A DNA stretch of 64,000 nt from Streptomyces ficellus (lineage in GTDB: Bacteria; Actinomycetota; Actinomycetes; Streptomycetales; Streptomycetaceae), in assembly GCF_009739905.1 (NCBI RefSeq), contig NZ_CP034279.1, positions 682,001-746,000 of the forward strand. The letters are read 5' to 3'. The position numbers and the translations under genes are program-made. Shown one piece after another: positions 18,005 through 54,051 of this stretch; the first letter of the stretch is position 1; each line of letters begins with the position of its first letter. The notes under the pieces were generated by a model. That model did not search any database. It saw only the letters and a program-made list of their open reading frames with translations, and was not told the origin of the DNA.

Positions 18005-18101
18005 GGTCTCCACCACCTTCTTGTTGGTACCGGACGTGTCACTCAAGGCCACCGTCACACTGCGCGTACGTGGGTACGAGAGGCGGATGGGGCAGTGACA
18101 A

Positions 18102-18115
18102 GGGCCATCCGGCCC
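18102..18115. promoter_or_regulatory. DosR-like box 1, GGGCC-ATCC-GGCCC
   Basis: A perfect 5-4-5 palindrome, 98 bp upstream of the leftward universal stress protein ATG at 18004, inside the divergent region shared with the flavodoxin gene. It is inferred to bind the response regulator encoded at 50512-51240. Confidence 0.65.
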
Positions 18116-18185
18116 CGCTGATCCTGGGGACGGGAACGCGAATCTCCCGAGCCAGGAGCGCCTGCTTGCCGCATGGCATGGAGGA

Positions 18186-18199
18186 GGGCCATTCGGCCC
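18186..18199. promoter_or_regulatory. DosR-like box 2, GGGCC-ATTC-GGCCC
   Basis: A second perfect copy, 84 bp (about eight helical turns) from box 1 and 129 bp upstream of the rightward flavodoxin start. Each divergent gene may use one box. Confidence 0.62.
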
Positions 18200-18327
18200 C
18201 GAGCTCTGCCTCACAGGCCCTTCAACGTGCCCGCACCTCAGCGCACCCTCGGAAGTGGAACCACTCGCACACCGGACGGAACGCGTTCAGCACACCGCCC
18301 GGCGCTCGGAGAAGGACGGTGAAGACA

Positions 18328-20526: not shown

Positions 20527-23211
20527 TCACGAGGGTCGATGGCTGGGGCCGTCCGGCCCTCTGGGCGGTGCCGGCGCTGGATCAGCGTGCTTCCGCCGCG
20601 GCGTCGACAGCTCGCCCAGGCGCCCGCTCAGCCGTGCGGCCAGGAAGCCGAGCCCGGCTCCTGCCAGTGCCAGAGCGACCTCTCGCCAGCCAAGGGGAAC
20701 GGTGCCGAGAAGAGTGCGCAAGGCCGGAAGGTACAGCGCGGCCGCGGCGAGACCCGCCGATGCGGCGACCGCTGCCGGCAGGAACAGATTTTCCCTGGTC
20801 AGCAGCCGGTCCCGCAGCCCGAGCACGACTCCCAATTGGGCCAGGAGCAGGGACAGGAACAGCACGCTCTGCCACGGCGCCGCGGTCGCGCGCGCGACCA
20901 GTGCCGCTGTCAGCGACCCCGCGGTGACCACCAGTGCGAGGAACAGTAGCCGCTGCCACAGGCCGTCCCCGAGGACGTGCTGGTCGGGCGGACGAGGTGC
21001 CCGCCTCATCGTCCCCTTCGCCACCGGCTCGGCGCCCATCGCTACCCCGGTGAGGCCGTGCGTCAGCAGATTGATCCAGAGGATCTGCCCGGCACGCAGC
21101 GGCAGGGGCAGGCCGAGCAGCGGGCCCAGGAGCATGACCAGGATTTCGGCGGCTCCTCCGGCCAGCCCGTACAGCAGGAAGCGCCGGATGTTGTCGTAGA
21201 CCCTCCGCCCTTCCTCGACGGCACTGACGACGGTCGACAGCTCGTCGTCCGTCAGCACCAGGTCGGCGGCCTGTCGTGCCACTTCGGTGCCCCTCCGCCC
21301 CATGGCAACGCCGATGTCGGCCTGACGCAGAGCCGGCCCGTCATTGACGCCATCGCCCGTCATGGCGGTCACGTGGCCCCGGGCTCGCCACGCCTGCACG
21401 ATGTCGAGCTTCTGCTTGGGGTCCGTGCGCGCGAAGACCCGCACGTCGGTGAGGTCCGGCACTTGCCCGGCGGTCAGTGCCTGCCCGGTGACGACCTCTC
21501 GGGGGTCGGCCCCGGTGATCAGGCCGACGCGCCCGGCTATGGCGCTCGCGGTCGCCGGGTGATCACCTGTGATCAGTACGGGGGTGATACCCGCGGCCCT
21601 ACAGTCGGCCAGGGTGCCGGCCGCGGCCGCTTTCGGCGGGTCGGCGAGCGCGGCGAGGCCGAGGAGGCGGAGTCCTGCTTCCGCGTCCGTGACGCGACTC
21701 GGTACGTCACCGCGCTCCGCGGACGCGACGGCGAGGACCCGGAAGCCCTGCGCGGCGAGCGCGGCAGCCTCACCACGAGCGCTTTGGAGCAGCGGAAGGG
21801 GCTCGTTGAGGACGACGGGATCAAGGACCGCTTCCGGCGCGCCCTTGAGGCAGACCAGCAACCGGCCGTCCGGAGTGTCGTGCACTGTGGTCATTCTCTT
21901 GCGGACGCTGTCGAACGGTTCCTCGTCCGTCCTCGGACAGCGGGCCCGCAGTTCCTGTTGTTCAAGGCAGCCCGCTTTGGCCGCGGCGGTGAGCAGGGCG
22001 GCCTCGGTGGGGTCGCCGATTGCCGTCCAGCGCCCGTCACCGCTCGAGTGCGGTACAGGCGCGGGAGGCCGCAGCTCGGCGTCGTTGCACAGCGCTGCGA
22101 CGGTCAGCAGTCCGCGGATCGGGCGGAGTTCTTCGCTGCGGGCGGCCCGGTCTTCCACTCTGACCTCGCCGGTGGGTTCATAGCCCGCGCCGGTCAAGGA
22201 GACCTCCCCCGCAGGCGTCCACACATGTTCGACGACCATGCGACCCTCGGTGAGCGTGCCCGTCTTGTCCGTCGCGAGTACGGTCACGGAGCCCAGCGTC
22301 TCGACGGCGGACAGGCGTCGGACGAGGGCGTGCCGGGCGGCCATGCGGCGGGCGCCGAGAGCGAGGGCCAGGGTGACGACCGCCGGGAGTGATTCGGGGA
22401 CCGCCGCGACCGCGAGGCTGATCGCCGTCACGGCCATCGTGGCCGGGGACGTGCCTCGGAGAAGGCCGAGCACGAAGACGACCAGGCACAGGGCGAGAGT
22501 CACCACGGCGAGCACACGGCCGAGTGCGGCGAGGCGGCGCTGCAGCGGCGTGGGTTCCGGCCGGGTGTCAAGCATCCGTGCGATACGGCCGAGGGCGCTG
22601 TCGGCCCCCGTGGCGGTCACGCGTGCGGTTCCCCGGCCTCGGACCACGATGGTGCCGGCGCGCAGGACCGCCTCCTCCGGCCGCTCGGACTGCGGGGACT
22701 TGTCCACGGGGACCGACTCGCCGGTCAGCATGGACTCGTCAATCAGCAGGGCCGCGGCGTGGACGAGCCGGGCATCCGCCGGCACGATGTCCCCCTCGCT
22801 CAGGACGAGGACATCGTCGGGCACGACGTCCGTGGACGGCACCTCCTTGTCGACCCCTCCGCGCCGTACGCGTGCGGTCGGCGCCGACATGGCCGAGAGG
22901 GCGGCCACCGCGTGATCGGCTCTGACCTCCTGCACCACTCCGACCGTCGTGTTGACCAGCACGACAAGCGCGATGACGGCCGAGTCCGTGTAGTCGCCGA
23001 TCGCGAGGGTCAGGGCGATGGCTCCGAGCAGCACCATGATCAGGGGGTCACGCAGCTGTGCGAAGACGCGCGAATGCAGCGGGACCGCTCGCTGCGCGGT
23101 CACCACGTTGGGGCCGTGTGCGGCGAGGCGGTGGGCGGCCTGATCGTCGGCCAGCCCTTGCAGGCGTTCCCTCGCTGTGCCGGGCGCCGCGTGAGTCGGA
23201 GCGGATCGCAT
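20527..23211 (-). CDS. P2-type cation-transporting ATPase (PESL type, CtpF-like)
   Basis: An 894-residue ATPase. It has an N-terminal cation-ATPase domain, TGES (163-166), membrane-4 motif AAVPESLPAVV (269-279), DKTGTLT with Asp315, and GDGVND in the P domain. A full set of C-terminal helices is present. The PE(G/S)LP motif fits Ca2+/Mn2+-type P2A pumps and mycobacterial CtpF. It lies 57 bp after a Usp gene in what looks like a usp-usp-ATPase-DUF1918 operon. The ion is not proven. Confidence 0.88.
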   Translation of the reverse strand: MRSAPTHAAPGTARERLQGLADDQAAHRLAAHGPNVVTAQRAVPLHSRVFAQLRDPLIMVLLGAIALTLAIGDYTDSAVIALVVLVNTTVGVVQEVRADHAVAALSAMSAPTARVRRGGVDKEVPSTDVVPDDVLVLSEGDIVPADARLVHAAALLIDESMLTGESVPVDKSPQSERPEEAVLRAGTIVVRGRGTARVTATGADSALGRIARMLDTRPEPTPLQRRLAALGRVLAVVTLALCLVVFVLGLLRGTSPATMAVTAISLAVAAVPESLPAVVTLALALGARRMAARHALVRRLSAVETLGSVTVLATDKTGTLTEGRMVVEHVWTPAGEVSLTGAGYEPTGEVRVEDRAARSEELRPIRGLLTVAALCNDAELRPPAPVPHSSGDGRWTAIGDPTEAALLTAAAKAGCLEQQELRARCPRTDEEPFDSVRKRMTTVHDTPDGRLLVCLKGAPEAVLDPVVLNEPLPLLQSARGEAAALAAQGFRVLAVASAERGDVPSRVTDAEAGLRLLGLAALADPPKAAAAGTLADCRAAGITPVLITGDHPATASAIAGRVGLITGADPREVVTGQALTAGQVPDLTDVRVFARTDPKQKLDIVQAWRARGHVTAMTGDGVNDGPALRQADIGVAMGRRGTEVARQAADLVLTDDELSTVVSAVEEGRRVYDNIRRFLLYGLAGGAAEILVMLLGPLLGLPLPLRAGQILWINLLTHGLTGVAMGAEPVAKGTMRRAPRPPDQHVLGDGLWQRLLFLALVVTAGSLTAALVARATAAPWQSVLFLSLLLAQLGVVLGLRDRLLTRENLFLPAAVAASAGLAAAALYLPALRTLLGTVPLGWREVALALAGAGLGFLAARLSGRLGELSTPRRKHADPAPAPPRGPDGPSHRPS
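20546..20559. promoter_or_regulatory. DosR-like box, GGGCC-GTCC-GGCCC
   Basis: A perfect palindrome inside the last codons of the ATPase gene and 106 bp upstream of the DUF1918 ATG, at the distance seen for other boxes. Because it overlaps coding sequence it could be coincidental. Confidence 0.45.
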
Positions 23212-25034: not shown

Positions 25035-25117
25035 GGTTCCCTCCTCCGGAGGACTCGTCGTACCTCCACGCTGTCACCGCGGGACTGGCGGGGGCAGGGC
25101 CGCACAGGTCCCTGGCA

Positions 25118-25131
25118 GGGCCGAAGGGCCC
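25118..25131. promoter_or_regulatory. DosR-like box, GGGCC-GAAG-GGCCC
   Basis: A perfect palindrome 84 bp upstream of the usp ATG at 25034. A near match with 5-nt spacing (GGGCC-GCACA-GGTCC) lies at 25097-25111. Confidence 0.65.
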
Positions 25132-25172
25132 TGTTCCTCCCTGGCGGCGTCCGGGCCGTTGCATACCCCACT

Positions 25173-27368: not shown

Positions 27369-27401
27369 CCCTGGCGCCGGCCCGAGCAGCCGGCGCCAGG
27401 G
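27369..27401 (+). terminator. hairpin after the DUF4389 gene
   Basis: A perfect 13-bp stem (arm CCCTGGCGCCGGC) with a 7-nt loop, 13 bp after the stop. The last bases of its right arm are also the first bases of the DosR-like box at 27399. Confidence 0.75.
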
Positions 27402-27412
27402 ACTTTCGGCCC
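27399..27412. promoter_or_regulatory. DosR-like box, GGGAC-TTTC-GGCCC
   Basis: 98 bp upstream of the usp ATG at 27510. The left half GGGACT is identical to a half of the mycobacterial DosR box, which links the GGGCC form of this region to the mycobacterial one. Confidence 0.62.
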
Positions 27413-27509
27413 CGTGCGTGCCCGGTCGGCCCCTGCCCGTCCACTCCCTGACCGGCGAGGCTGGACATGTGACCGAAAGGTACAGCCCTCCAGCCCGGAG
27501 GAGGCTCCC

Positions 27510-33855: not shown

Positions 33856-33920
33856 GATGGGCTCCTCTCGAGAGGCCGTGCTTCCACTTCCAGATTCGTC
33901 CACTGCGGCGCTGCGTGCGA

Positions 33921-33934
33921 GGGCCGGAGGGCCC
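33921..33934. promoter_or_regulatory. DosR-like box, GGGCC-GGAG-GGCCC
   Basis: A perfect palindrome 66 bp upstream of the usp ATG at 33855, with a second site 20 bp further away. Confidence 0.65.
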
Positions 33935-33940
33935 GGCGCA

Positions 33941-35609: not shown

Positions 35610-35698
35610 TGCACGCTCCCTTCGGGAGTGCACCGGCGAGGCGCCGGGCTGAGTGGGTTCCTCACCTTCAGCGTGCGCGTGGTGTACGCGGCGCGACA

Positions 35699-35712
35699 GG
35701 GCCGAGCGGCCC
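35699..35712. promoter_or_regulatory. DosR-like box, GGGCC-GAGC-GGCCC
   Basis: A perfect palindrome 90 bp upstream of the CBS-BON GTG at 35609, in the 135-bp gap after the next usp gene. Confidence 0.65.
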
Positions 35713-35744
35713 GCCGTACGGCCCTCCGGCACGTCGGTTCCGTG

Positions 35745-36620: not shown

Positions 36621-36691
36621 CGTCCCCACCGCCTTTCACGCAGGGTCGTACGTCTCGTTCTCAGGATCGCGCGCGCCGGCCACCCCGTGTA

Positions 36692-36705
36692 GGGCCGGTC
36701 GGGCC
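36692..36705. promoter_or_regulatory. DosR-like box, GGGCC-GGTC-GGGCC
   Basis: The left half is perfect. The right half has one mismatch at 4-nt spacing, or is perfect (GGCCC) at 5-nt spacing. It lies between divergent genes: 72 bp from the usp ATG at 36620 and 83 bp from the GNAT fusion ATG at 36788. Confidence 0.55.
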
Positions 36706-36787
36706 CCATGGATGCCCGCCCGGACCACGAGTCCTCACGGCCCACCGGCGCACGCTGGAGGTGAGCACTCAGGAGGAGGGCCGGATC

Positions 36788-42566: not shown

Positions 42567-42902
42567 GATGCGCCTCTCGGTCGCGTCGTGGCTGTACGGC
42601 GGCCCCCGGCGACCATGTCGACGTGGCAGGGACAGCCACCGCAAGAGGCGAAAGGAGCCCATCCGCTTCTCGCGGATCCTGATTGCGCGGTGCACGGTTC
42701 ATGACCGCTCCCCCGCGCCTCTGATGGGGCTCCTTCCGCCAATTCCAGGTAAACACCGTCACCGCCTGGCCACTAGGGCCTACCGGCCCCTTCACGTACG
42801 CAGCCGACGCGGTGGCACGGCCGGCGACGGACGGTCCCGGGTTCTTCGCCGCAGGGAAGACCGTGCGCGGACGATCGCCACGCAACCGCCCGTTGGTTCC
42901 CG
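42567..42902. other. 336-bp gap between a usp gene and the alcohol dehydrogenase gene
   Basis: No gene seen. A perfect DosR-like box is at 42776-42789. The stretch 42730-42770 has lower GC (AATTCCAGGTAAAC), which may be promoter sequence. Confidence 0.55.
42776..42789. promoter_or_regulatory. DosR-like box, GGGCC-TACC-GGCCC
   Basis: A perfect palindrome but 210 bp upstream of the usp ATG, further than the other boxes. This implies a long leader or a start upstream of the one I chose. Confidence 0.55.
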
Positions 42903-43973
42903 CTAGGCCGCGACATTGACCTCGTCGTGCTTGGCGCCGCCCAGCACCACCTTGAGCGCTCCGGTGTGCGCCGCGCCGGAAAAGACCTCGTACGCCTCCT
43001 CCATCTGCCCCAGCTCGAACCGGTGGGTCACCATCGCCGACGCGGCTGGAAGTCGCCCGGCGGCCATCATGCGCAGCAGCAGCGGAGTGGAGTGGGTGTC
43101 GACGAGCCCCGTGGTGATCGTGACGTCCTTGATCCACAGGTCTTCGAGGTGGAGGGCCGCCGGCTTGCCGTGGACGCCGACGTTGGCGACGTGGCCTCCG
43201 GGCCGGACCATGCGCGTGCACTGCTCGAACGCCTCGGGCACCCCGACGGCCTCGACCACCACGTCGGCACCCAGGCCGTCGGTGAGGTCCATGACCAGCT
43301 GCTCCGGGTCCTCGGCGGCGCTGACGGCGGCGTCCGCACCCATGGAGCGTGGCGCTTCCAGCCGGGATTCCGCGAGATCCACCGCGATGATGCGCCCGGG
43401 GGTGTACAGCTGGGCGGTCGCGATGGTGGCGAGTCCGATCGGCCCGGCCCCGACCACGACGACCGTGTCCCCCGGGCGCACATGCCCGTTGAGCACGCCG
43501 ACCTCGTAGCCCGTGGGGAAGATGTCGGCCAGCAGGACCGCGTCCTCACTGGTGACGGCACTCGGCAGCGGGTGCACCGAGAGGTCGGCGAAGGGTACGC
43601 GGACGTACTCGGCCTGGGTGCCGTCGATGAGGTGCCCGAGCACCCAGCCGCCGCCACCCCGGCACTGCCCGTAGCGGTTCTCCCGGCAGAACCCGCAGCG
43701 GCCGCAGGCGGCGATGCAGGAGATCAGAACCCGGTCCCCGGGCCGGACCGTCCGTACGTCGCTGCCGACCTCCACGACCTCGCCCACCGCCTCGTGGCCC
43801 AGGACCGTTCCGGGGGTCACCTCAGGCACGTCGCCCTTGATGATGTGCAGGTCGGTACCGCAGATGGTGACGGCCTCGACGCGGATCACCGCATCGGCCG
43901 CGTCCTTGATACCGGGGTCGGGCACGTCCTCCCAGGACGTCTGACCGGGACCCTGGAACACCAATGCCTTCAT
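42903..43973 (-). CDS. zinc-dependent alcohol dehydrogenase
   Basis: A 356-residue medium-chain dehydrogenase. Catalytic zinc ligands are Cys38 (ICGTDLH) and His60-Glu61 (LGHEAVGE). Structural zinc ligands are Cys90, Cys93, Cys96 and Cys104. The NAD(P) fold shows VVVVGAGPIGLA near 171-182. It probably oxidises or reduces an alcohol or aldehyde and could dispose of reducing power when oxygen is low. The ATG at 43973 follows GAGAAGGACG. It is divergent from the beta-CASP gene; tandem DosR-like boxes lie between them. Confidence 0.9.
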   Translation of the reverse strand: MKALVFQGPGQTSWEDVPDPGIKDAADAVIRVEAVTICGTDLHIIKGDVPEVTPGTVLGHEAVGEVVEVGSDVRTVRPGDRVLISCIAACGRCGFCRENRYGQCRGGGGWVLGHLIDGTQAEYVRVPFADLSVHPLPSAVTSEDAVLLADIFPTGYEVGVLNGHVRPGDTVVVVGAGPIGLATIATAQLYTPGRIIAVDLAESRLEAPRSMGADAAVSAAEDPEQLVMDLTDGLGADVVVEAVGVPEAFEQCTRMVRPGGHVANVGVHGKPAALHLEDLWIKDVTITTGLVDTHSTPLLLRMMAAGRLPAASAMVTHRFELGQMEEAYEVFSGAAHTGALKVVLGGAKHDEVNVAA

Positions 43974-44038
43974 GACGTCGTCCTTCTCTCGGATTCGCGG
44001 TACAGAACCACGGTCACGCCGCCACGCCCGCGACGCTG

Positions 44039-44052
44039 GGGCCGATCGGCCT
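44039..44052. promoter_or_regulatory. DosR-like box, GGGCC-GATC-GGCCT
   Basis: One mismatch in the outermost right base. It is 66 bp upstream of the alcohol dehydrogenase ATG, the same distance as the box upstream of the usp-ppdK operon. Confidence 0.6.
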
Positions 44053-44059
44053 TCGGAAG

Positions 44060-44073
44060 GGGACGGTCGGACC
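44060..44073. promoter_or_regulatory. DosR-like box, GGGAC-GGTC-GGACC
   Basis: 21 bp after the previous box and 65 bp upstream of the beta-CASP ATG. It uses the GGGAC half found in the mycobacterial box. The pair sits symmetrically between two divergent genes. Confidence 0.55.
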
Positions 44074-44137
44074 CCTCTCTCTCCGGGTGGGCGGTGCCAC
44101 TCTGGTACCGGGGCCGAAGGCCGGAGGTGGAACGATC

Positions 44138-45574
44138 ATGGGTGTGGCTCCTCTTGACCGGGCAGCGGTGACGCCCGCCAAGCCCAGGCCGGCCTTGCTG
44201 ACGTTCCTCGGGGGCGTCGGGACCGTTACCGGCAGCCGGTTCCTCGTCGAGAGCGATCACACACGCGTCCTGCTCGACTGTGGTCTCTTCCAGGGTCTCG
44301 CCGACCTGCGACGGCGCAACTGGCGCCCCCTCCCCCGCGTCGCCGCGGATGTCCACGCCGTCGTCGTCACGCACGCGCACCTGGACCATTGCGGGTATCT
44401 GCCCCGGCTGGTCCGCCACGGGTTTCGCGGCCCCATCCTCATGACCGCCTACACGGCCCGCCTCACGGAGATCGTCCTGCGGGACAGCGCCCATCTGCAG
44501 ATGGAGGCGGCCCAGCACGCCAACGAGCACGGCTGGTCGAAGCACAGGCCCGCCAAGCCGCTGTACGACAACCAGGACGTGGAGCGCACGCTCAAGCTCT
44601 TCGATCCCGTGCCGGTCGGCAGCACGGTGGAGATCGAGGCGGGCACCACCCTGACCCTGCACCACGCGGGCCACATCCTCGGTTCGGCCTGGGCCCGCCT
44701 GACTCTCGAGGACGGGCACACCCTGGCCACCAGCGGAGACCTGGGCCGCCCCGGCCACCCCCTGCTGCGACCCGCCGAACCGTTCTCCGGGGCGGACGTG
44801 CTGCTGGTGGAATCCACGTACGGCAACCGCCGGCACGACGACGAAACGGCGCGGGCAGGGTTCGCCGACGTCATCACCCGCACGCTCGCGCGCGGTGGGA
44901 CCGTCGTGATACCCGCCTTCGCACTCGACCGCACGGAGGTCGTCCTGCACGAACTGTCGGAGCTCCGCCGCGCAGGCACGCTGCCGGCCGACGTGCCCGT
45001 GTTCGTCGACAGTCCCATGGCTCTGGCCGCACTCGACGTCTACCGGGACGCGGTCGCCGCTCAAGCGGCCGAACTACGACCGGAGATCGCCGGTCACGGC
45101 GCCGCGGACCTGCATCCCGAGCCCTTCCTGGCCGCCCGCACCGTCCAGGAATCCATCGCCATCAGCGAGCGGGAAGGCCCCGCGGTGATCGTCTCCTCCG
45201 CCGGCATGGCCACGGGCGGCCGAGTGCTGCACCACCTGAGCCGACTTCTCCCGGACCCACGCAACGCCGTCGTCATCGTCGGCTTCGCCGCCGCGGGAAC
45301 GCGGTCCCGCGAGCTGGTCGACGGCGCCCGCACGCTCAAGATGTTCGGTGAATACCTACCGGTGCGAGCCGGGATCGCCAACGTCCCCCACTTCTCGGCC
45401 CACGCCGACGCGGCACAGATCATCGACTGGCTGCGGGAGGCGCCGGCCCCCCACACCACATACCTCGTCCACGGCGAGCCGGACGCCGCCGACGCCCTAC
45501 GCTCTCGCATCGACCGGGAACTGAACTGGACGGCAGTGGTCCCCCGGTCCGGCGAAGCGGTCCTGGTGCGATGA
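44138..45574 (+). CDS. metallo-beta-lactamase / beta-CASP family nuclease
   Basis: A 478-residue protein with the metal site [13 protein letters not shown] (His79, His81, Asp83, His84), a second metal region ([22 protein letters not shown]), the beta-CASP domain, and the motifs [15 protein letters not shown] and FSAHAD. This is the CPSF/RNase J-like group, so it probably cuts RNA. Genes of this type occur near dormancy genes. The ATG at 44138 follows GGAGG with 9-nt spacing; an earlier GTG at 44087 would overlap the operator region. It converges with the GH65 gene. Confidence 0.87.
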
Positions 45575-45581
45575 CCGCTCC

Positions 45582-48002
45582 TCACGGCTGAACCAGCGTG
45601 AGCACCGTCGAATCCCCCGGCTCCACGGTCACGGCACGGTCGGGCAGCCGGATGTCGATCGGTGACATGTCCGAAGGCGGCACACTGATCCGCAGGCTGC
45701 CCGGGCGGACCCGGAGCTGGACACCCCAGTGCCCTTGGTAGCGGACGGAGAAGCCGTACTCGGTGAATCGCGGCGACGGCACGGGGTCGAGCCACAGGGC
45801 GCCTCCCCGGGTTTCCAGGCCGGTGAGGCCGCGCTGCACGAGGTCGATGGTCCCCGCCATGGCGCCCAGGTGGATGCCCTCTTCCGTTGTACCGCCCTGA
45901 AGGTCGGCCACGTCGCCTTCCAGGGCTTCTTGGACGTATGCCCACGCATCGTCCCGGCGTACGCGTGCCAGTACCCAGCCGTGGACCAGCCCGCTGAGCG
46001 TCGAGCCGTGGCTGGTGCGGTGCAGGTAGTAGTCGACCGTACGGCTCCAGGTCACGTCGTCCAGTCCGTAACCCAGTCGGCTGAAGATGGCGGCCAGCTC
46101 GGGCGGCGAGAAGAGGTAACCGAGCATGAGGACGTCTGCTTGCTTGGACGCCTGGTACCGGTTGACCGTGTCACCCTCGGCCTCCAGGATCCGGTCCAGG
46201 CGGCGGACGTTGCCGTAACGGGCGCGGTAACCCTCCCAGTCGAGTTCGGCCAGTTCACCGAAGCCCTCGAACTGGCTGATCACGCCGCCGTGGAAGGGCA
46301 CGCGGAGCTTGCGCGACACCTCCTCCCACAGAGCCAGCTCCGTGTGGTCGAGGCCGGTCCGTTCGCACAGTTCCACGCGGCGCGGTGCGGGGAGCTCCCG
46401 GAGTACGTGCAGAGCCCGGGTGAGCACCCAGGCAGCGCAGACGTTGGTGTAGGCGTTGTCGTCCAGGCCGGGAGTGTGGGAGCCCGGGTAGGAGTCGTGA
46501 TACTCGTCGGGCCCCAGCACTCCGCGGATGCGGTATCGCCGGGTGTCGGCGTCGTAGGTGGCGGAGTCGGCCCAGAAGCGGGCGATCTGTGTCAGCATCT
46601 CGGCGCCCTTGGTGTGCAGGAACTCACTGTCCCCACTCGCCTCGTAGTACTTCCACACGTTGTACGCGATGGCCGAACCCACGTGGTGCTGGAGGTGCGA
46701 GTGGTCTGGCAGCCAGTGCCCGGAGCGGGGGTTGAGGTGCAGTTGCTGGGTTTCCTCGCGGCCGTCGCTGCCGCTCTGCCACGGGTAGAGGGCTCCCTTC
46801 CTGCCTGCGTCGCGCGCCGCGTTCAGCGCTCGCGGCAGTCGTCGATGCCGGTAGAGCAACAGGGCACGCGACACCTCGGGCAGATGCAGGTTCAGGTACG
46901 GCAGGACGAACAGCTCGTCCCAGAAGACGTGGCCGCGGTACGCCTCGCCGTGGAGGCCCCTTGCCGGGACGCCGACGTCCAGTTCGGCGGTGTGCGGCGA
47001 CAGCGTCTGAAGCACATGGAAGAGGTGCAGCCGCAGGACTCGGCCGGCATCGCCCGGCACGTCCAGGTCCGACCGGCGCCACAGTTGAAGCCAGGCTGCT
47101 CTGTGTGACTCCATCAGCGCCGGAAAGGACGGTGCGCGTCCGACCGCGTCGATCGCCGCGTGGAGCGGATCGCTGATGGCGGGGTCCCTGGACGTGTACA
47201 GGGCGATGACCTTGTCGACCGCGTGGGCACCACCCGTCGCGGAAAGCCGCAGGCGCAGGCGCTGGACGGCCCGCAACGGCTCATGTGCTGTGCCGGCCTC
47301 GACCACGCCAGTGTCGGCCGTCGTACGGGCCGCCAGGCCGATCCGGATGTCCGAGGTACTGGTCCTGCACCGCAGCCACGTGGTGTCGGATGGGCCGTCC
47401 CCAGCGTTCACATGAACCAGGTGCCGGCCGTCGAGCTGCTGGTAGCGGGCGACACCGCTGTTGGTCACGGAGCCGTCGAGGGCGGCTTCCACCTCGATGT
47501 CGCCGGACCACCCGCCTTCGGCGGTGAACTCGGTCCGCAGAGCCGCAAGGTGGGGATCCCCCATGTGTACGAGGCGGAGCTGGCGTACCGCGAGCACGCG
47601 ACCGTCGGCCTCGTACTTCGTCGTGCGCTCCAGGGTTCCGGTGCGCAGGTCGAGATGCTGACGGTGCTCGCGCAGGGCCCCGCTGTCGGGGGTGAACCAC
47701 GGGGTGTCGCCCTGCGGGCTGGACATCCGGAACCGTAGCGGCAGCCAGTTCGGCAGGTTGACGATGTCCTCGTTCTCGACCTGACGGCCCGCGACGGTCG
47801 AGGTGAGCCTGTCGTAGCAGCCGGCGACGTACGTACCGGGGTAGTGCACCTCGTCGGCCGCACACTCGGGTGCCGCGCCCCTGGTCGCCATGTAACCGTT
47901 GCCGAGGGTGCACAACGCCTCACGCAAACGCTCCCGACCGGGCTCGTACCCTTCGTACTCCCAGGTGTGGTTCGTCTCCGGCATGTTCTCCGGCATCGTC
48001 AT
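45582..48002 (-). CDS. glycoside hydrolase family 65 phosphorylase
   Basis: An 806-residue GH65 enzyme. It has an N-terminal beta-sandwich (1-270), a helical linker, and an (alpha/alpha)6 barrel with FWDELFVLPYL (360-370), the catalytic acid Glu500 in LGPDEYHDS, a phosphate-binding SKQADVLML, and a small C-terminal sheet. These enzymes split maltose, trehalose or kojibiose with phosphate to give beta-glucose 1-phosphate; sequence does not fix which. The ATG at 48002 overlaps the stop of the mutase gene (ATGA). The neighbour is the natural partner for beta-glucose 1-phosphate. Confidence 0.9.
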   Translation of the reverse strand: MTMPENMPETNHTWEYEGYEPGRERLREALCTLGNGYMATRGAAPECAADEVHYPGTYVAGCYDRLTSTVAGRQVENEDIVNLPNWLPLRFRMSSPQGDTPWFTPDSGALREHRQHLDLRTGTLERTTKYEADGRVLAVRQLRLVHMGDPHLAALRTEFTAEGGWSGDIEVEAALDGSVTNSGVARYQQLDGRHLVHVNAGDGPSDTTWLRCRTSTSDIRIGLAARTTADTGVVEAGTAHEPLRAVQRLRLRLSATGGAHAVDKVIALYTSRDPAISDPLHAAIDAVGRAPSFPALMESHRAAWLQLWRRSDLDVPGDAGRVLRLHLFHVLQTLSPHTAELDVGVPARGLHGEAYRGHVFWDELFVLPYLNLHLPEVSRALLLYRHRRLPRALNAARDAGRKGALYPWQSGSDGREETQQLHLNPRSGHWLPDHSHLQHHVGSAIAYNVWKYYEASGDSEFLHTKGAEMLTQIARFWADSATYDADTRRYRIRGVLGPDEYHDSYPGSHTPGLDDNAYTNVCAAWVLTRALHVLRELPAPRRVELCERTGLDHTELALWEEVSRKLRVPFHGGVISQFEGFGELAELDWEGYRARYGNVRRLDRILEAEGDTVNRYQASKQADVLMLGYLFSPPELAAIFSRLGYGLDDVTWSRTVDYYLHRTSHGSTLSGLVHGWVLARVRRDDAWAYVQEALEGDVADLQGGTTEEGIHLGAMAGTIDLVQRGLTGLETRGGALWLDPVPSPRFTEYGFSVRYQGHWGVQLRVRPGSLRISVPPSDMSPIDIRLPDRAVTVEPGDSTVLTLVQP

Positions 48003-48793
48003 TCCTCGAAGGAGTCGGTGAGCAGTTCGGAAAGGTCGTCGACCACGGTGTCCGCACCTCGGCCGAGCAGCGCGGCACGCGTGCCGGACCCGGCGCTGCG
48101 GTCCACGCCGACCACCAGGCGAAAGCCACCTCGTCTGCCCGCCTCCACTCCCGCCAGGGAGTCCTCGATCACGGCCGTCCGACCGGGCGGAAGGCCCAGC
48201 CGGTCCGCCGCCTCGAGGAAGAGGTCGGGAGCCGGTTTTCCCGGCAGTCCGAGGCGGGACGCTTCGGCTCCGTCCACCACGGCGGCGAAGTACGGCAGGA
48301 CACCGGACAGGCTGAGCAGATCCCTGGCGTGCCGGGAAGCGGACGCGGCCGCCATGGCCACCCCGCGCCCCCGCAGATGCCGCAGCAGGAGCAGGGTGCC
48401 CGGGTACGCCTCGATTCCCCCCGCCCGGAGCTGGTCGGTGAAGAGCTGCTCCTTGTATGCGGCCACGGCACCCACGGTGTCCGTACCGGGGGGATCCGTG
48501 AGAGCGCCGAGCGGCAGGGCGAGGCCGCGTGAGGCGAGGAAGGAAGCGGCACCGTCCATGCGGGACTTGCCGTCGACGTACCGCAGGTAGTCGTCCCTGT
48601 CGAACGGCCGCCGTTCGTACGGGTCGGCCGGAGGGTGGGCCTTCAGGCAGGCATCGAAGGATGCCTTCCACGCGGCCGCATGAACACGTGCCGAGTCGGT
48701 GATCACGCCGTCCGTGTCGAAGACGACACCTGCCACGCGGCGCATGCAGCCGGAGGGAGCTGCCGCCTGCCCCGCGGACGGGCCGGCGTTCAC
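47999..48793 (-). CDS. beta-phosphoglucomutase-like HAD hydrolase
   Basis: A HAD-superfamily protein with the nucleophile motif VVFDTDGVITDS (first Asp), a helical cap, motif II AAASASRHA, and motif III KPAPDLFLEAA followed by VIEDSLAGVEAG. This matches beta-phosphoglucomutases, which convert beta-glucose 1-phosphate to glucose 6-phosphate. The second residue of the nucleophile pair is Thr-Asp rather than the usual Leu-Asp. The start is uncertain: GTG at 48793 or ATG at 48745, neither with a strong ribosome binding site. It is coupled to the GH65 gene. Confidence 0.85.
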   Translation of the reverse strand: MNAGPSAGQAAAPSGCMRRVAGVVFDTDGVITDSARVHAAAWKASFDACLKAHPPADPYERRPFDRDDYLRYVDGKSRMDGAASFLASRGLALPLGALTDPPGTDTVGAVAAYKEQLFTDQLRAGGIEAYPGTLLLLRHLRGRGVAMAAASASRHARDLLSLSGVLPYFAAVVDGAEASRLGLPGKPAPDLFLEAADRLGLPPGRTAVIEDSLAGVEAGRRGGFRLVVGVDRSAGSGTRAALLGRGADTVVDDLSELLTDSFEE

Positions 48794-49424: not shown

Positions 49425-49463
49425 CGGCGGGAGTGGTGATGGGCCCGGGCGGACTGGTCTTGA

Positions 49464-49477
49464 GGGCCGAACGGCCC
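49464..49477. promoter_or_regulatory. DosR-like box, GGGCC-GAAC-GGCCC
   Basis: The longest symmetric copy: arms extend to 7 bp each (GAGGGCC and GGCCCTC). It is 88 bp upstream of the usp ATG at 49566. Confidence 0.68.
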
Positions 49478-49565
49478 TCTGCACGGAGCTCGCACTCGTC
49501 GATGCTGAGTGGCAGAGGGCGGGCCGCGATGGCCGTGCCCGTCGAACCGTACGGAGGCCATCACC

Positions 49566-50438
49566 ATGACCCGCGCCATTGCTGTAGGGGTGGATGGATC
49601 ACCGGAAAGCCTGGCGGCGGCCGATTGGGCGGCAGGCGAAGCGTCGCTCCGAGGGGTACCGCTGCGTATCGTGCACGCCTGGCTCTGGCAGCCGTTGGAC
49701 GTGCCCGTCGTCCAGGACCGGGAAACCCAAGCCAAGTCCGCCAACGCCGTCCTGCGTGAGGCCCGGACGCACGTGGCCGCCCGGCACCCCGGCCTTGCCG
49801 TGACTGCGGAAGTGGTGGCGGACACGGCGGTTTCCGCTCTCCTCGGCGAGGCGGAGCGGTCCGAGATGCTGGTGCTCGGTTCGCGCGGACACGGCGCCCT
49901 CCTCGGCTTTCTGCTCGGCTCGTACGGCCAGCAGGTGATCGCCGCCGCCACCCGGCCCGTGGTGTCGGTCCGCGCGCGGGACAAGGACGCGCGGGAGCCG
50001 GAGGGCGGCGAGGTCGTCGTGGGCCAGCAGGGCACGCCGGCGGACAGCGACGCGGTGCTGGCATTCGCCTTCGAGGCAGCAGCCGCACGAGGCGCGGTGG
50101 TGCGCGCGGTGCGGGCCTGGAGCCTGCCTCCTGTCTATGCCTACAGTCCCGGTTCGATGTATCTGGCGGACCAGGCCGGAGGGCTGGAACCGTTCGAGAA
50201 GAAGGCATTGGGAGAGGCGCTCGCTCCTTGGCGGGAGCGGTTCCCGGATGTGCCGGTGATCGAGCACGTCGAGATCGGCAGTGCCGGACAGGTGCTGCTC
50301 TCGGCCGCCTCACGTGCACGGTTGCTCGTAGTCGGTCGTCGGGTACACCGCTCCCCCGTCGGGACCCGCATCGGGTCGGTCGCCCACGCCGCCCTGCACC
50401 ATGCCACCTGCCCCGTCGCGGTCGTCCCGCACCCCTGA
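49566..50438 (+). CDS. tandem universal stress protein
   Basis: A 290-residue double Usp. The first loop is canonical (GSRGHGALLGFLLGS); the second is degenerate (GRRVHRSPVGTRIGS). The ATG at 49566 follows GGAGG with 8-nt spacing. It is a single-gene unit next to the regulators and converges on the response regulator gene over a strong hairpin. Confidence 0.88.
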   Translation: MTRAIAVGVDGSPESLAAADWAAGEASLRGVPLRIVHAWLWQPLDVPVVQDRETQAKSANAVLREARTHVAARHPGLAVTAEVVADTAVSALLGEAERSEMLVLGSRGHGALLGFLLGSYGQQVIAAATRPVVSVRARDKDAREPEGGEVVVGQQGTPADSDAVLAFAFEAAAARGAVVRAVRAWSLPPVYAYSPGSMYLADQAGGLEPFEKKALGEALAPWRERFPDVPVIEHVEIGSAGQVLLSAASRARLLVVGRRVHRSPVGTRIGSVAHAALHHATCPVAVVPHP

Positions 50439-50511: not shown

Positions 50512-51240
50512 TCAGCTCCGCCGTCGGCCGTCCCGGGTCGCGGTCGAGCCGCTGTGGCCTCCTTGGTCAGCCAGTGCTTGGGTGGCGATGACCGCGGCCT
50601 GCACCCGGCGTTCCACGCCCAGCTTGGCCAGGAGCCGGGAGATGTTGTTCTTGACCGTCTTTTCGGCGAGGTAGAGCTCCTTGCCGATCTCGCGGTTGGT
50701 GAGCCCCTCGCCGACCAGGGCGAGAATCTCCCGCTCCCGATCCGTCAGCCCGGGCAAACCCTGCGGATGCTCTTCCTTGGGAGAGCCGCCCCTCAGCCGG
50801 GCCATCACCCGAGCCGTGGCACCGGGGTCGAGCATCGATTGGCCGGACGCGACCGTGCGCACGGCGTTGACCAGGTCGGTGCCGGTGATCTGTTTGAGGA
50901 CATACCCGGATGCGCCCGCCATGATCGCGTCGAGCAGCGCTTCTTCGTCGTCGAAGGAGGTCAGCATCAGGCAGGCGAGGTCCGGCATCCGAGAGCGCAG
51001 CTCCCGGCAGACGCTCACACCGTCCCCGTCCGGCAGACGCACGTCCAGAACGGCCACCTGCGGGCGCAGGGCCGGAATGCGAACCAGTGCCTGTTCCGCC
51101 GTGCCCGCTTCGCCGACCACGGTCAGGTCCGGTTCGGCGTCCAGGAGGTCGTGCACCCCACGGCGCACCACCTCGTGGTCGTCGAGAAGGAACACCGTGA
51201 CCGGTGCGTCCTCGGTGGAGCTGCTGCTGCTGTCCGTCAT
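50512..51240 (-). CDS. DevR/OsdR-like response regulator (NarL family)
   Basis: A 242-residue regulator. The receiver has Asp20/21, phospho-acceptor Asp66 ([13 protein letters not shown]), Thr94 and Lys116. The LuxR-type helix-turn-helix (165-220) has [16 protein letters not shown] and the recognition helix [17 protein letters not shown], almost the same as in mycobacterial DevR/DosR. This makes a DosR-like operator likely. The ATG at 51240 follows GGAG with 8-nt spacing. A perfect box 79 bp upstream suggests autoregulation. The partner kinase is probably at 52047-53765. Confidence 0.92.
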
Positions 51241-51318
51241 CACATGCTCCATATTCGATGAGTCCGCCCGCGCGGGCGGACCTATCAGCATGGTGCGCGC
51301 ATGCGGGGCGAACGGACA

Positions 51319-51332
51319 GGGCCGGATGGCCC
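51319..51332. promoter_or_regulatory. DosR-like box, GGGCC-GGAT-GGCCC
   Basis: A perfect palindrome with arms that extend to 7 bp (CAGGGCC, GGCCCTG), 79 bp upstream of the response regulator ATG. It may be used for self-control. Confidence 0.66.
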
Positions 51333-51433
51333 TGATGCGCGGCTACCGGTGCCGCGCGCCTCTCCGTCTTCACCACACCGCTCGTCCATGCCTGTGTCCC
51401 CGTGCCATCCGGAGAAGACCGGCCCTCCTGCAT

Positions 51434-52046: not shown

Positions 52047-53765
52047 TCATCCCGGCTGGGCGACCGGCGCCCGCCAGAGGAGTCTGGTGCCGCCTTCGGC
52101 CGGCGCCTGGACATCGAAGGCCCCACCCACACTCCTGGCCCGCTCCTCCAGGTTACTCAGCCCGCTGCGCCTGCCGTCGGCCGGAATGCCCCTGCCGTTG
52201 TCCGTGACGATGAGGACGACCTCGTCCGCCGTGGCCTGCAGGGACACCTCGACGCGTGTCGCGTGCGCGTGGCGGGCCACGTTGCTCAGCGCTTCGCCCA
52301 GGGCTGCCATGACGTGGTCGGCCACCTGCGGCGGGACATCGGTGTCGAGCAGGCCCTCCATGCTCAGGCGTGGCGGGAAGCCGAGCGTGGTGCCGGCCTC
52401 GCCCACGGCACGCGCCACGCGAGCGCGAAGGCTCGGACCCGTGTCCTCGTCACGGGCCCGCAATCCGAAGATCGTGGAACGAATGATCTTGATCGTTTCG
52501 TCGAGATCTCCGACGGCACGCGAGACGCGTTCGGCGGCGCCCTCGTGCTGGACGAGCCGTGCGGCGCTCTGCAGGGTCATCCCGGTCGCGAACAGCCGTT
52601 GGATGGCGAGGTCGTGCAGGTCCCGCGCGATGCGGTCCCGGTCCTCCAGCAGCGCAAGCTGTTCGGCGTCGTTGCGCCGCTCGGCCAGCTCCAGGGCGAG
52701 CGCGGCCTGACCCGCGAACGCCCGCAGCGGTTCGAGCTCCCCCTCGGTGAACACCGGCTCACCCACGGAACGTGCCAGCAGCAGAACGCCCCGGATGTCC
52801 CTCGTCTCGGTGCCCAGGGGAACGGCCACGGCCGGGCCGAGACCGTCGAAGCGACGGGGCGCGGCCGTGTACCGGTCGTCCTCAGCCAGCCCTGTCGTGG
52901 TCACTGGCGTGCCCGCCCGGTAGGCGGCCCCGGACAGGGTGCCCCGGACGGGCACCACCAGGCCCCGCCGGGGCTCGTCGTCGGCACCGATCGCGAGTTC
53001 CACGACGAGGTCGTCCGTACCGGCGACGGGCACGGACACATCCGCGAGCTGTGCACCGGTGATGTCCTGGGCGCGGCGGGCAATCAATTCCAGCACGTCC
53101 AGCCGGGGGCTCCCGGAAAGGAGGCTGTTGGTGATCTCCGCGTTCGCCTGCAGCCAGCGCTGCTGTCGCTGAGAGGCTTCGTAGAGTCGGGCATTGTCGA
53201 TCGCCACACCCGCGGCCACCGACAGCGTGGCGATCACCGACTCGTCCTCGGCGTCGAAGTCCGCACCACCGTGCTTGTCCGTGAGGTAGAGGTTGCCGAA
53301 GACCTCGTCGCGTACGCGGATGGGGACGCCGAGGAACGTACGCATCGGCGGGTGGTGCGCGGGGAAGCCGTACGACGCCTCGTGGGTGCCGAGATCGGTG
53401 AGCCGCAGCGGCTCCGGGTTGCGAATGAGCTCGCCCAGGATGCCGTGCCCGGCCGGCAGCGGCCCGATCCTGGCGATCTCCGCCTCCGTCAGCCCGACGG
53501 TGAGGAACTGCGACAGTGTCCGGCCGTCGGGGCCGATCACACCCAGCGCTCCGTACTGGGCGTCGACGAGCAGCGCCGCCGCTTCCACGATCCGCCGCAG
53601 CACCTGGGGAAGGTCCAACTCCCGACCGACCGAGACGACGGCCTCCAGCAGGCTGTGCACCCGGTCCCTGGTGCCGAGAGCCGCGTTGATGCGCGCCTGA
53701 AGCTCCTCCAGCAATTCGTCGAGCCGCATCTGGGGCATCCGCGACAGCGGCTCCTCCACGCTCAC
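52047..53765 (-). CDS. DevS/DosT-like GAF sensor histidine kinase
   Basis: A 572-residue kinase with two GAF domains (about 50-195 and 215-365), a HisKA_3 dimerisation helix with phospho-His384 (IARDLHDLAIQRLF), and a HATPase domain (GEALSNVARHA 490-500; TDNGRGIP). The first GAF has FPAHHPPMRTFLGVP; His138 aligns with the haem-ligand His149 of DosS, and Tyr160 (NLYLTDK) with its distal Tyr171. It may therefore sense O2, NO or CO through haem. There is no membrane segment. The GTG at 53765 follows GGAGGAGG. It probably phosphorylates the regulator at 50512-51240. Confidence 0.9.
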   Translation of the reverse strand: MSVEEPLSRMPQMRLDELLEELQARINAALGTRDRVHSLLEAVVSVGRELDLPQVLRRIVEAAALLVDAQYGALGVIGPDGRTLSQFLTVGLTEAEIARIGPLPAGHGILGELIRNPEPLRLTDLGTHEASYGFPAHHPPMRTFLGVPIRVRDEVFGNLYLTDKHGGADFDAEDESVIATLSVAAGVAIDNARLYEASQRQQRWLQANAEITNSLLSGSPRLDVLELIARRAQDITGAQLADVSVPVAGTDDLVVELAIGADDEPRRGLVVPVRGTLSGAAYRAGTPVTTTGLAEDDRYTAAPRRFDGLGPAVAVPLGTETRDIRGVLLLARSVGEPVFTEGELEPLRAFAGQAALALELAERRNDAEQLALLEDRDRIARDLHDLAIQRLFATGMTLQSAARLVQHEGAAERVSRAVGDLDETIKIIRSTIFGLRARDEDTGPSLRARVARAVGEAGTTLGFPPRLSMEGLLDTDVPPQVADHVMAALGEALSNVARHAHATRVEVSLQATADEVVLIVTDNGRGIPADGRRSGLSNLEERARSVGGAFDVQAPAEGGTRLLWRAPVAQPG

Positions 53766-54051
53766 TGCGCCTCCTCCGCCACCGTCCGCTCTGCATTCCA
53801 GCGTATCGGCCCACAGCGGCGGTCCGGGGGTTGCGCACGCGGCAGAACATGGCCGCCCGTGGACGGCCGTACGCATGGCGCCCTCAGAGCAGAGGCTGAT
53901 CGGCACCGGACGACGACCATGCGGTCCCTGCCCGGGAGACGCTGAAGAAGCCAGCCACTTCACGGGACGGGCCTCCCTGACCACCTGGCTTGGGAACCTC
54001 AGACCTCGCCGGTATCGGTGCCGGGAATGCTGCACCACAGCTGCGAGAGTT

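Follow-up and report, generated by a model that had tools for sequence, protein, structure and literature searches.

In the 64-kb stretch of DNA analysed here (the window), a zinc-dependent alcohol dehydrogenase-family gene and a beta-CASP metallo-beta-lactamase ribonuclease gene diverge from an intergenic region that carries two palindromes, and the question raised by this locus is which regulator would read the two sites and whether it would do so on behalf of one gene or of both. The first palindrome, GGGCCGATCGGCCT, lies at 44039-44052 and the second, GGGACGGTCGGACC, at 44060-44073. Both were confirmed in the sequence at the coordinates claimed for them in an earlier note on this DNA, with 21 bp from start to start and with outer edges 66 and 65 bp, respectively, from the start codons of the dehydrogenase gene (43973) and the beta-CASP gene (ATG at 44138). 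One half of each palindrome is imperfect, namely AGGCC in the first and GGTCC in the second. The dehydrogenase gene (42903-43973, minus strand) encodes a protein with the Pfam domains ADH_N and ADH_zinc_N, the best solved relative of which is 5yln (386 bits). Its neighbour (44138-45574, plus strand) is predicted to encode a ribonuclease of the TTHA0252 type, based on an MBL core, beta-CASP and RMMBL domains (Pfam Beta-Casp and RMMBL), and a metal-binding HxHxDH motif that aligns with TTHA0252 itself, the best solved relative (227 bits). An identity as the Cas14 of type VII CRISPR was considered for this protein, whose best NCBIfam match is a model of that kind, and rejected, since the match reaches 306.5 bits and the model's cut-off is 800. 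Among named relatives, Streptomyces apocyni (L030) is the nearest by both proteins, with protein identities of 96% and 90%.

DevR/DosR, which governs hypoxia and dormancy responses in mycobacteria, has an orthologue in Streptomyces coelicolor, OsdR. The 16-nt palindromic consensus that OsdR recognises there is AGGGCCGATCGGCCCT (Urem et al. 2016, PMC5069765), and both sites in the window match it. In the same source, OsdR bound the uspA site and six other regions in EMSAs, and the table of sites includes predicted ones before uspA, whose operon contains the dehydrogenase SCO0199, and before the zinc-containing dehydrogenase SCO0179 (PMC5069765). As OsdR/DevR-type boxes, which carry no strand, the two sites become S1 (44038-44053, GGGGCCGATCGGCCTT), proximal to the dehydrogenase gene, and S2 (44059-44074, GGGGACGGTCGGACCC), proximal to the beta-CASP gene. 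On a matrix built from the 26 site sequences in Table 1 of PMC5069765, most of which are predicted sites, S1 scores 17.4 and S2 scores 11.9, the latter being only moderate; the published sequences score 11.4-18.8 on this, their own matrix. Pairs in which both sites score at least 11.9 and lie 12-40 bp apart number one in the window, at 21 bp, and none in control stretches of the same genome, of which 20 were far (400 kb) and 10 nearer (200 kb), or in 60 simulated 64-kb sequences. With laxer limits (one site at least 10, the other at least 7), there are three pairs in the window, at spacings of 12, 20 and 21 bp; the 400 kb of far control DNA has four, including one at 21 bp, and the 200 kb nearer by has one.

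A matrix from published sites was used because loose patterns proved uninformative. Within the window, GGGMCSRTCGGMCY with two mismatches has 86 matches versus 62 expected, a number reached by 0 of 100 shuffles, and GGGHCNNNNGDCCC with one mismatch has 75 versus 94 expected, a number reached by 99 of 100 shuffles. Genome-wide, GGGMCSRNCGGMCY has 58 forward and 58 reverse matches versus 117 and 111 for the reversed pattern. Loose patterns were rejected as evidence, since a lone hit of this kind carries little meaning in such DNA and the genome as a whole shows no surplus; with the matrix, an excess is seen locally, in the OsdR island described below. Judged by the matrix and by the setting, S1 and S2 very probably serve as operators for OsdR, a response regulator of the DevR/DosR type whose gene lies 6.4 kb from them in the window.

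That setting includes other components of an OsdR system. The osdR gene (50512-51291, minus strand) encodes a DevR-type response regulator; among solved structures it is closest to DevR (3c3w, 267 bits), the next best reaching 145 bits. The osdK gene (52047-54038, minus strand) encodes a GAF sensor kinase of the DevS/DosT type, the first GAF domain of which matches DevS (2y8h, 160 bits) as well as the DosT structure 2vzw (170 bits) and has the segment HHPPMRTFLGVP in common with 2vzw. Because osdR, a DevS-like kinase and dense boxes occur together, the window is an OsdR island, holding universal stress protein (USP) genes as well, and the S1/S2 promoter region is one part of it. Boxes scoring at least 11.9 number 15 in the window versus 11 in the 400 kb of far control DNA and 6 in the 200 kb nearer by, or 23 per 100 kb versus about 3 per 100 kb in the 600 kb sampled elsewhere. 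Boxes of at least 16 number six in the window, one in the far and none in the nearer control DNA. Ten of the 15 boxes are flanked on one side by a -10-like hexamer at 33-35 bp; the background is 10.6% over the whole window and 13.6% for positions within 300 bp of boxes. One of the ten, at 20545-20560, is located within an ORF, at its 3' end, and faces the opposite way, and its hexamer may be a chance match.

The best box of the window, the near-perfect AGGGCCGAACGGCCCT (49463-49478, no strand, score 21.8), stands before a USP gene whose start is likely at 49566 and has the -10-like GATGCT at 33 bp. Another (51318-51333, no strand, score 16.1) is located upstream of osdR, with the -10-like CACCAT 33 bp away towards that gene, and osdR would probably be autoregulated through it. 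The true osdR start is likely the ATG at 51252, as a start at 51291 would overlap the predicted -10. A third box (42775-42790, no strand, score 14.9), upstream of the USP gene adjoining the dehydrogenase gene, is without a -10-like hexamer at 33-35 bp. Further strong boxes are spread across the island at 18101-18200, 20545-20560, 25117-25132, 27398-27413, 33920-33935, 35698-35713 and 36691-36706, and 6 of 8 have the hexamer at that distance on one side. The island also contains a glycoside hydrolase family 65 gene and, adjoining it on the same strand, a beta-phosphoglucomutase-like gene (45582-48793); their listed ORFs overlap, but as no family 65 domain begins before residue 239, the listed start is probably wrong and the overlap not real.

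Conservation of the sites was assessed in relatives obtained by a search with the beta-CASP protein, which gave 80 named loci (the best 80 of 423), and by searches with the dehydrogenase and beta-CASP proteins in 150 genomes of the genus. Among the loci up to L139, the two genes are divergent and adjacent in 16, the window included, which after removal of two duplicates leaves 14 distinct intergenic regions; these regions are related, and counts of them are not counts of independent events. A box of at least 7 is present at the S1 place in 13 of the 14, again including the window's own. Two such boxes at 20-21 bp occur in 7 regions, one box in 6, and none in 1 (L062), though both genes are present there, the beta-CASP match covering residues 4-327 only. 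In S. apocyni, boxes scoring 14.9 and 7.3 stand at both places, 21 bp apart, and both differ in sequence. Over the 14 regions, the best-pair score peaks at 21 bp (12.5), with 6.4 at 20 bp and 6.2 at 22 bp. The remaining spacings from 10 to 40 bp, which are a fair control, give -6.9 to 5.9 (highest at 30 bp); shuffles give about -9 to -12 and lie lower than those spacings because one strong box lifts every spacing. A peak at 21 bp corresponds to adjacent sites in helical phase.

A -10 element takes the form TANNNT. In 13 of the 14 regions (L062 being dropped), each represented by its best pair with a spacing of 20-22 bp, the hexamer xAxxxT was sought at all offsets between 14 and 59 bp, measured from the middle of the nearer box; the S2 position scores below 5 in 4 of the 13, where it is placed by spacing alone. 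On the dehydrogenase side, the hexamer is found at 33, 34 and 35 bp in 4, 8 and 1 regions, i.e., in 13/13, and on the beta-CASP side in 1, 8 and 3, i.e., in 12/13 (L036 being without), the window's own region counted both times. At all other offsets it is found in at most 2 of the 13. In the window, the predicted dehydrogenase -10 is GACCGT (44010-44015, minus strand), 33 bp from the S1 centre, with a predicted start at about 44003, and the predicted beta-CASP -10 is CACTCT (44098-44103, plus strand), 34 bp from the S2 centre, with a predicted start at about 44110; the predicted centres of S1 and S2 would then lie at about -42.5 and -43.5 of their respective promoters. With -10-like hexamers at 33-35 bp on either side, S1 and S2 would each overlie the -35 region of the gene they adjoin, and the symmetry of the sites that the earlier note pointed out would arise because each is the predicted -35-region site of one gene. 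The suggestion made there, that these are tandem operators through which a hypoxia-linked regulator may switch the two genes together, is supported by the consensus match, the presence of osdR and osdK in the window, the box density, the pair at 20-22 bp in relatives and the hexamers on both sides. The match and the island context are direct observations, as are the conservation of the box, its spacing and its distance from the -10.

The mechanism that would unite these features begins with low oxygen, or a related signal, upon which the DevS/DosT-like kinase OsdK would phosphorylate OsdR. Dimers of OsdR~P would then bind the two sites, probably in a cooperative manner, two turns apart and facing the same side of the helix. 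At each of the two weak promoters, the bound dimer would cover the -35 region (S1 for the dehydrogenase gene, S2 for the beta-CASP gene), with the box centre near -43 and a poor -10, the other dimer would lie one step upstream at about -64, and both genes would be switched on together. That cooperatively acting OsdR~P would activate both genes is highly probable, and it is from the sequence features above that we infer binding, cooperativity, activation rather than repression, the signal, and the co-switching of the dehydrogenase and beta-CASP genes. Also supported is a refinement of the first reading, whereby each gene would have its own promoter-proximal box and would use the other as a helper. 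The pairing of the two genes is not obligatory.

This last point emerges from loci at which one of the genes is missing, and the same loci bear upon the most serious rival, namely that only S1 functions, for the dehydrogenase gene, that S2 is a helper of that same promoter or is decaying, and that the ribonuclease gene is expressed from a promoter independent of both. A proximal box of at least 7 together with a -10 is present in 35 of 42 distinct regions upstream of a dehydrogenase gene, the 7 without being excluded, and 18 of the 35 have no intact divergent beta-CASP gene. A partner box of at least 5, located 20-22 bp further upstream, occurs at 10 of the 17 loci with a divergent beta-CASP gene and at 7 of the 18 where it is absent or a fragment; at control distances the means are 1.3% and 1.9%, respectively, and the maxima 12% and 11%. 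Because the partner box persists at those 7 loci, it does not need the ribonuclease gene, and a lone promoter would also profit from the pair, in keeping with cooperative binding. The persistence also speaks for the rival, as does the absence of a second clear box from 6 of the 14 divergent regions. Against the rival stand the -10-like hexamer found on the beta-CASP side in 12 of 13 regions, at 33-35 bp from where S2 lies, and the box pairs with a -10 at 4 beta-CASP loci (L031, L035, L071 and L185) of the 26 that have no divergent dehydrogenase gene. That no more than 4 of these 26 have such a pair counts against the two-gene reading; of the others, L188 has one box with a -10 and, by this test, 21 have none. 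An exclusive role for S1 is, on this balance, unlikely. In G038 (L118, L195) and G042 (L113, L199), only fragments of the beta-CASP gene are left next to a dehydrogenase gene that is still intact, which indicates that the ribonuclease is dispensable over evolution. The OsdR box is kept beside the dehydrogenase gene in these two genomes, which offer a natural series for asking which box serves which gene; beta-CASP gene fragments are also found in G034, G139 and G146.

Less probable still is that the sites are read by another regulator, either a paralogue 64% identical to OsdR or some other response regulator of the NarL type. The paralogue (G000:C1:3557606-3558286, L171) matches at 280 bits, the next best match being at 162, and is encoded far from the island; the genome has many more NarL-type regulators, and in S. 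coelicolor OsdK also partners with SCO3818 (PMC5069765). Arguing for OsdR instead are the location of osdR within the island, with a box of its own, and the binding of the S. coelicolor orthologue to consensus sites in vitro (PMC5069765). The paralogue could share OsdR boxes. All 150 genomes of the genus have a match to the OsdR protein, no orthology line being drawn, and the co-occurrence of osdR and the gene pair is therefore uninformative. The notion that the palindromes act as RNA or DNA structure (a terminator or leader hairpin) or reflect GC-rich chance is most improbable, for although the window is 71% GC and a 10-nt inverted repeat joins 44047-44056 and 44114-44123, that repeat is not kept in the closest named relative, L030 (compared by eye), on which ground a leader hairpin was dropped, both boxes lie upstream of both predicted starts, and the boxes surpass the controls in density, in constancy of spacing and in constancy of distance to the -10.

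With OsdR as the preferred regulator of S1 and S2, the beta-CASP gene may be viewed in a wider context. A box of at least 9 within 200 bp upstream was sought for the best 80 of 423 beta-CASP loci, two with fewer than 200 bases upstream being excluded. Groups were taken from record titles, save that L096 (titled Microtetraspora) was placed in the Streptomycetaceae, its protein being 78% identical. The box is present at 17 of 27 loci from Streptomycetaceae, 11 of 43 from other Actinomycetota and 0 of 8 from outside the phylum, versus shuffle rates of 2.8%, 2.1% and 2.1%, and rates in other 200-base pieces of the same loci of 5.2%, 2.8% and 0.2%. In the flanks of 44 loci from the other Actinomycetota, matches above 70 bits include 14 OsdK-like, 11 nitroreductase-like, 9 cation-ATPase-like, 8 OsdR-like and 5 USP. 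It is a tentative proposition, somewhat short of an even chance, that a TTHA0252/CPSF-like beta-CASP ribonuclease might be a recurrent direct target of DevR/OsdR-type regulators across the Actinomycetota. Weighing against it are the application of a Streptomyces-derived matrix to other genera, the restriction to the best 80 of 423 loci, the absence of the box at 32 of the 43 other loci, and the counting of one genus several times (Lentzea L055, L056 and L068).

The locus itself adds to the Streptomyces hypoxia/dormancy regulon a putative divergent promoter with predicted starts and testable spacing rules, namely 21 bp from box to box and 33-35 bp between a box and its -10. If the wider proposition is true, low oxygen would induce, together with the dormancy genes, a dedicated enzyme of global mRNA decay, such that entry into dormancy would entail clearing old messages as well as making new ones. 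An RNA-decay enzyme would also be a recurrent DevR/OsdR target that has gone unremarked in the open-access papers covered, none of those listed pairing beta-CASP, RMMBL or TTHA0252 with DosR or OsdR, and programmed mRNA clearance at dormancy would become directly testable in a harmless soil bacterium. The ribonuclease as a little-noticed, recurring target may be a fresher point than the paired operators, since that arrangement is of a known type.

Three known systems bear comparison with the locus. The beta-CASP protein has its closest solved relative in TTHA0252 of Thermus thermophilus. That enzyme is described as a 5'-3' exo-RNase, and when it is disrupted many mRNAs change, with 207 genes affected in log phase (PMC4229858). 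It differs in that the available text of that paper draws no link to hypoxia or DevR-type control. The OsdR regulon of S. coelicolor resembles the window in its consensus, its type of regulator, and its USP, PPDK, nitroreductase and dehydrogenase neighbours, and it includes divergent genes with a common OsdR-bound region, SCO0207/SCO0208 (PMC5069765). The site table of that paper names no gene as beta-CASP or ribonuclease, and its main text makes no mention of ribonuclease, RNase, lactamase, tandem or spacing (PMC5069765). The nearest precedent for the two operators themselves is the tgs1-Rv3131 pair of Mycobacterium tuberculosis, in which divergent genes are separated by two neighbouring sites that differ in affinity, one being high and the other low, and DevR acts on the divergent promoters via these sites, P and S, the second of which is filled cooperatively (PMC3029386). 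At the DevR promoters of M. tuberculosis analysed in that work, the start-proximal site overlaps the -35 (PMC3029386). The genes flanking that pair are different, and DevR binding has been demonstrated there (PMC3029386), whereas binding to S1 and S2 is predicted from sequence. The mechanism proposed for S1 and S2 would be that of tgs1-Rv3131, carried over to OsdR and to other genes.
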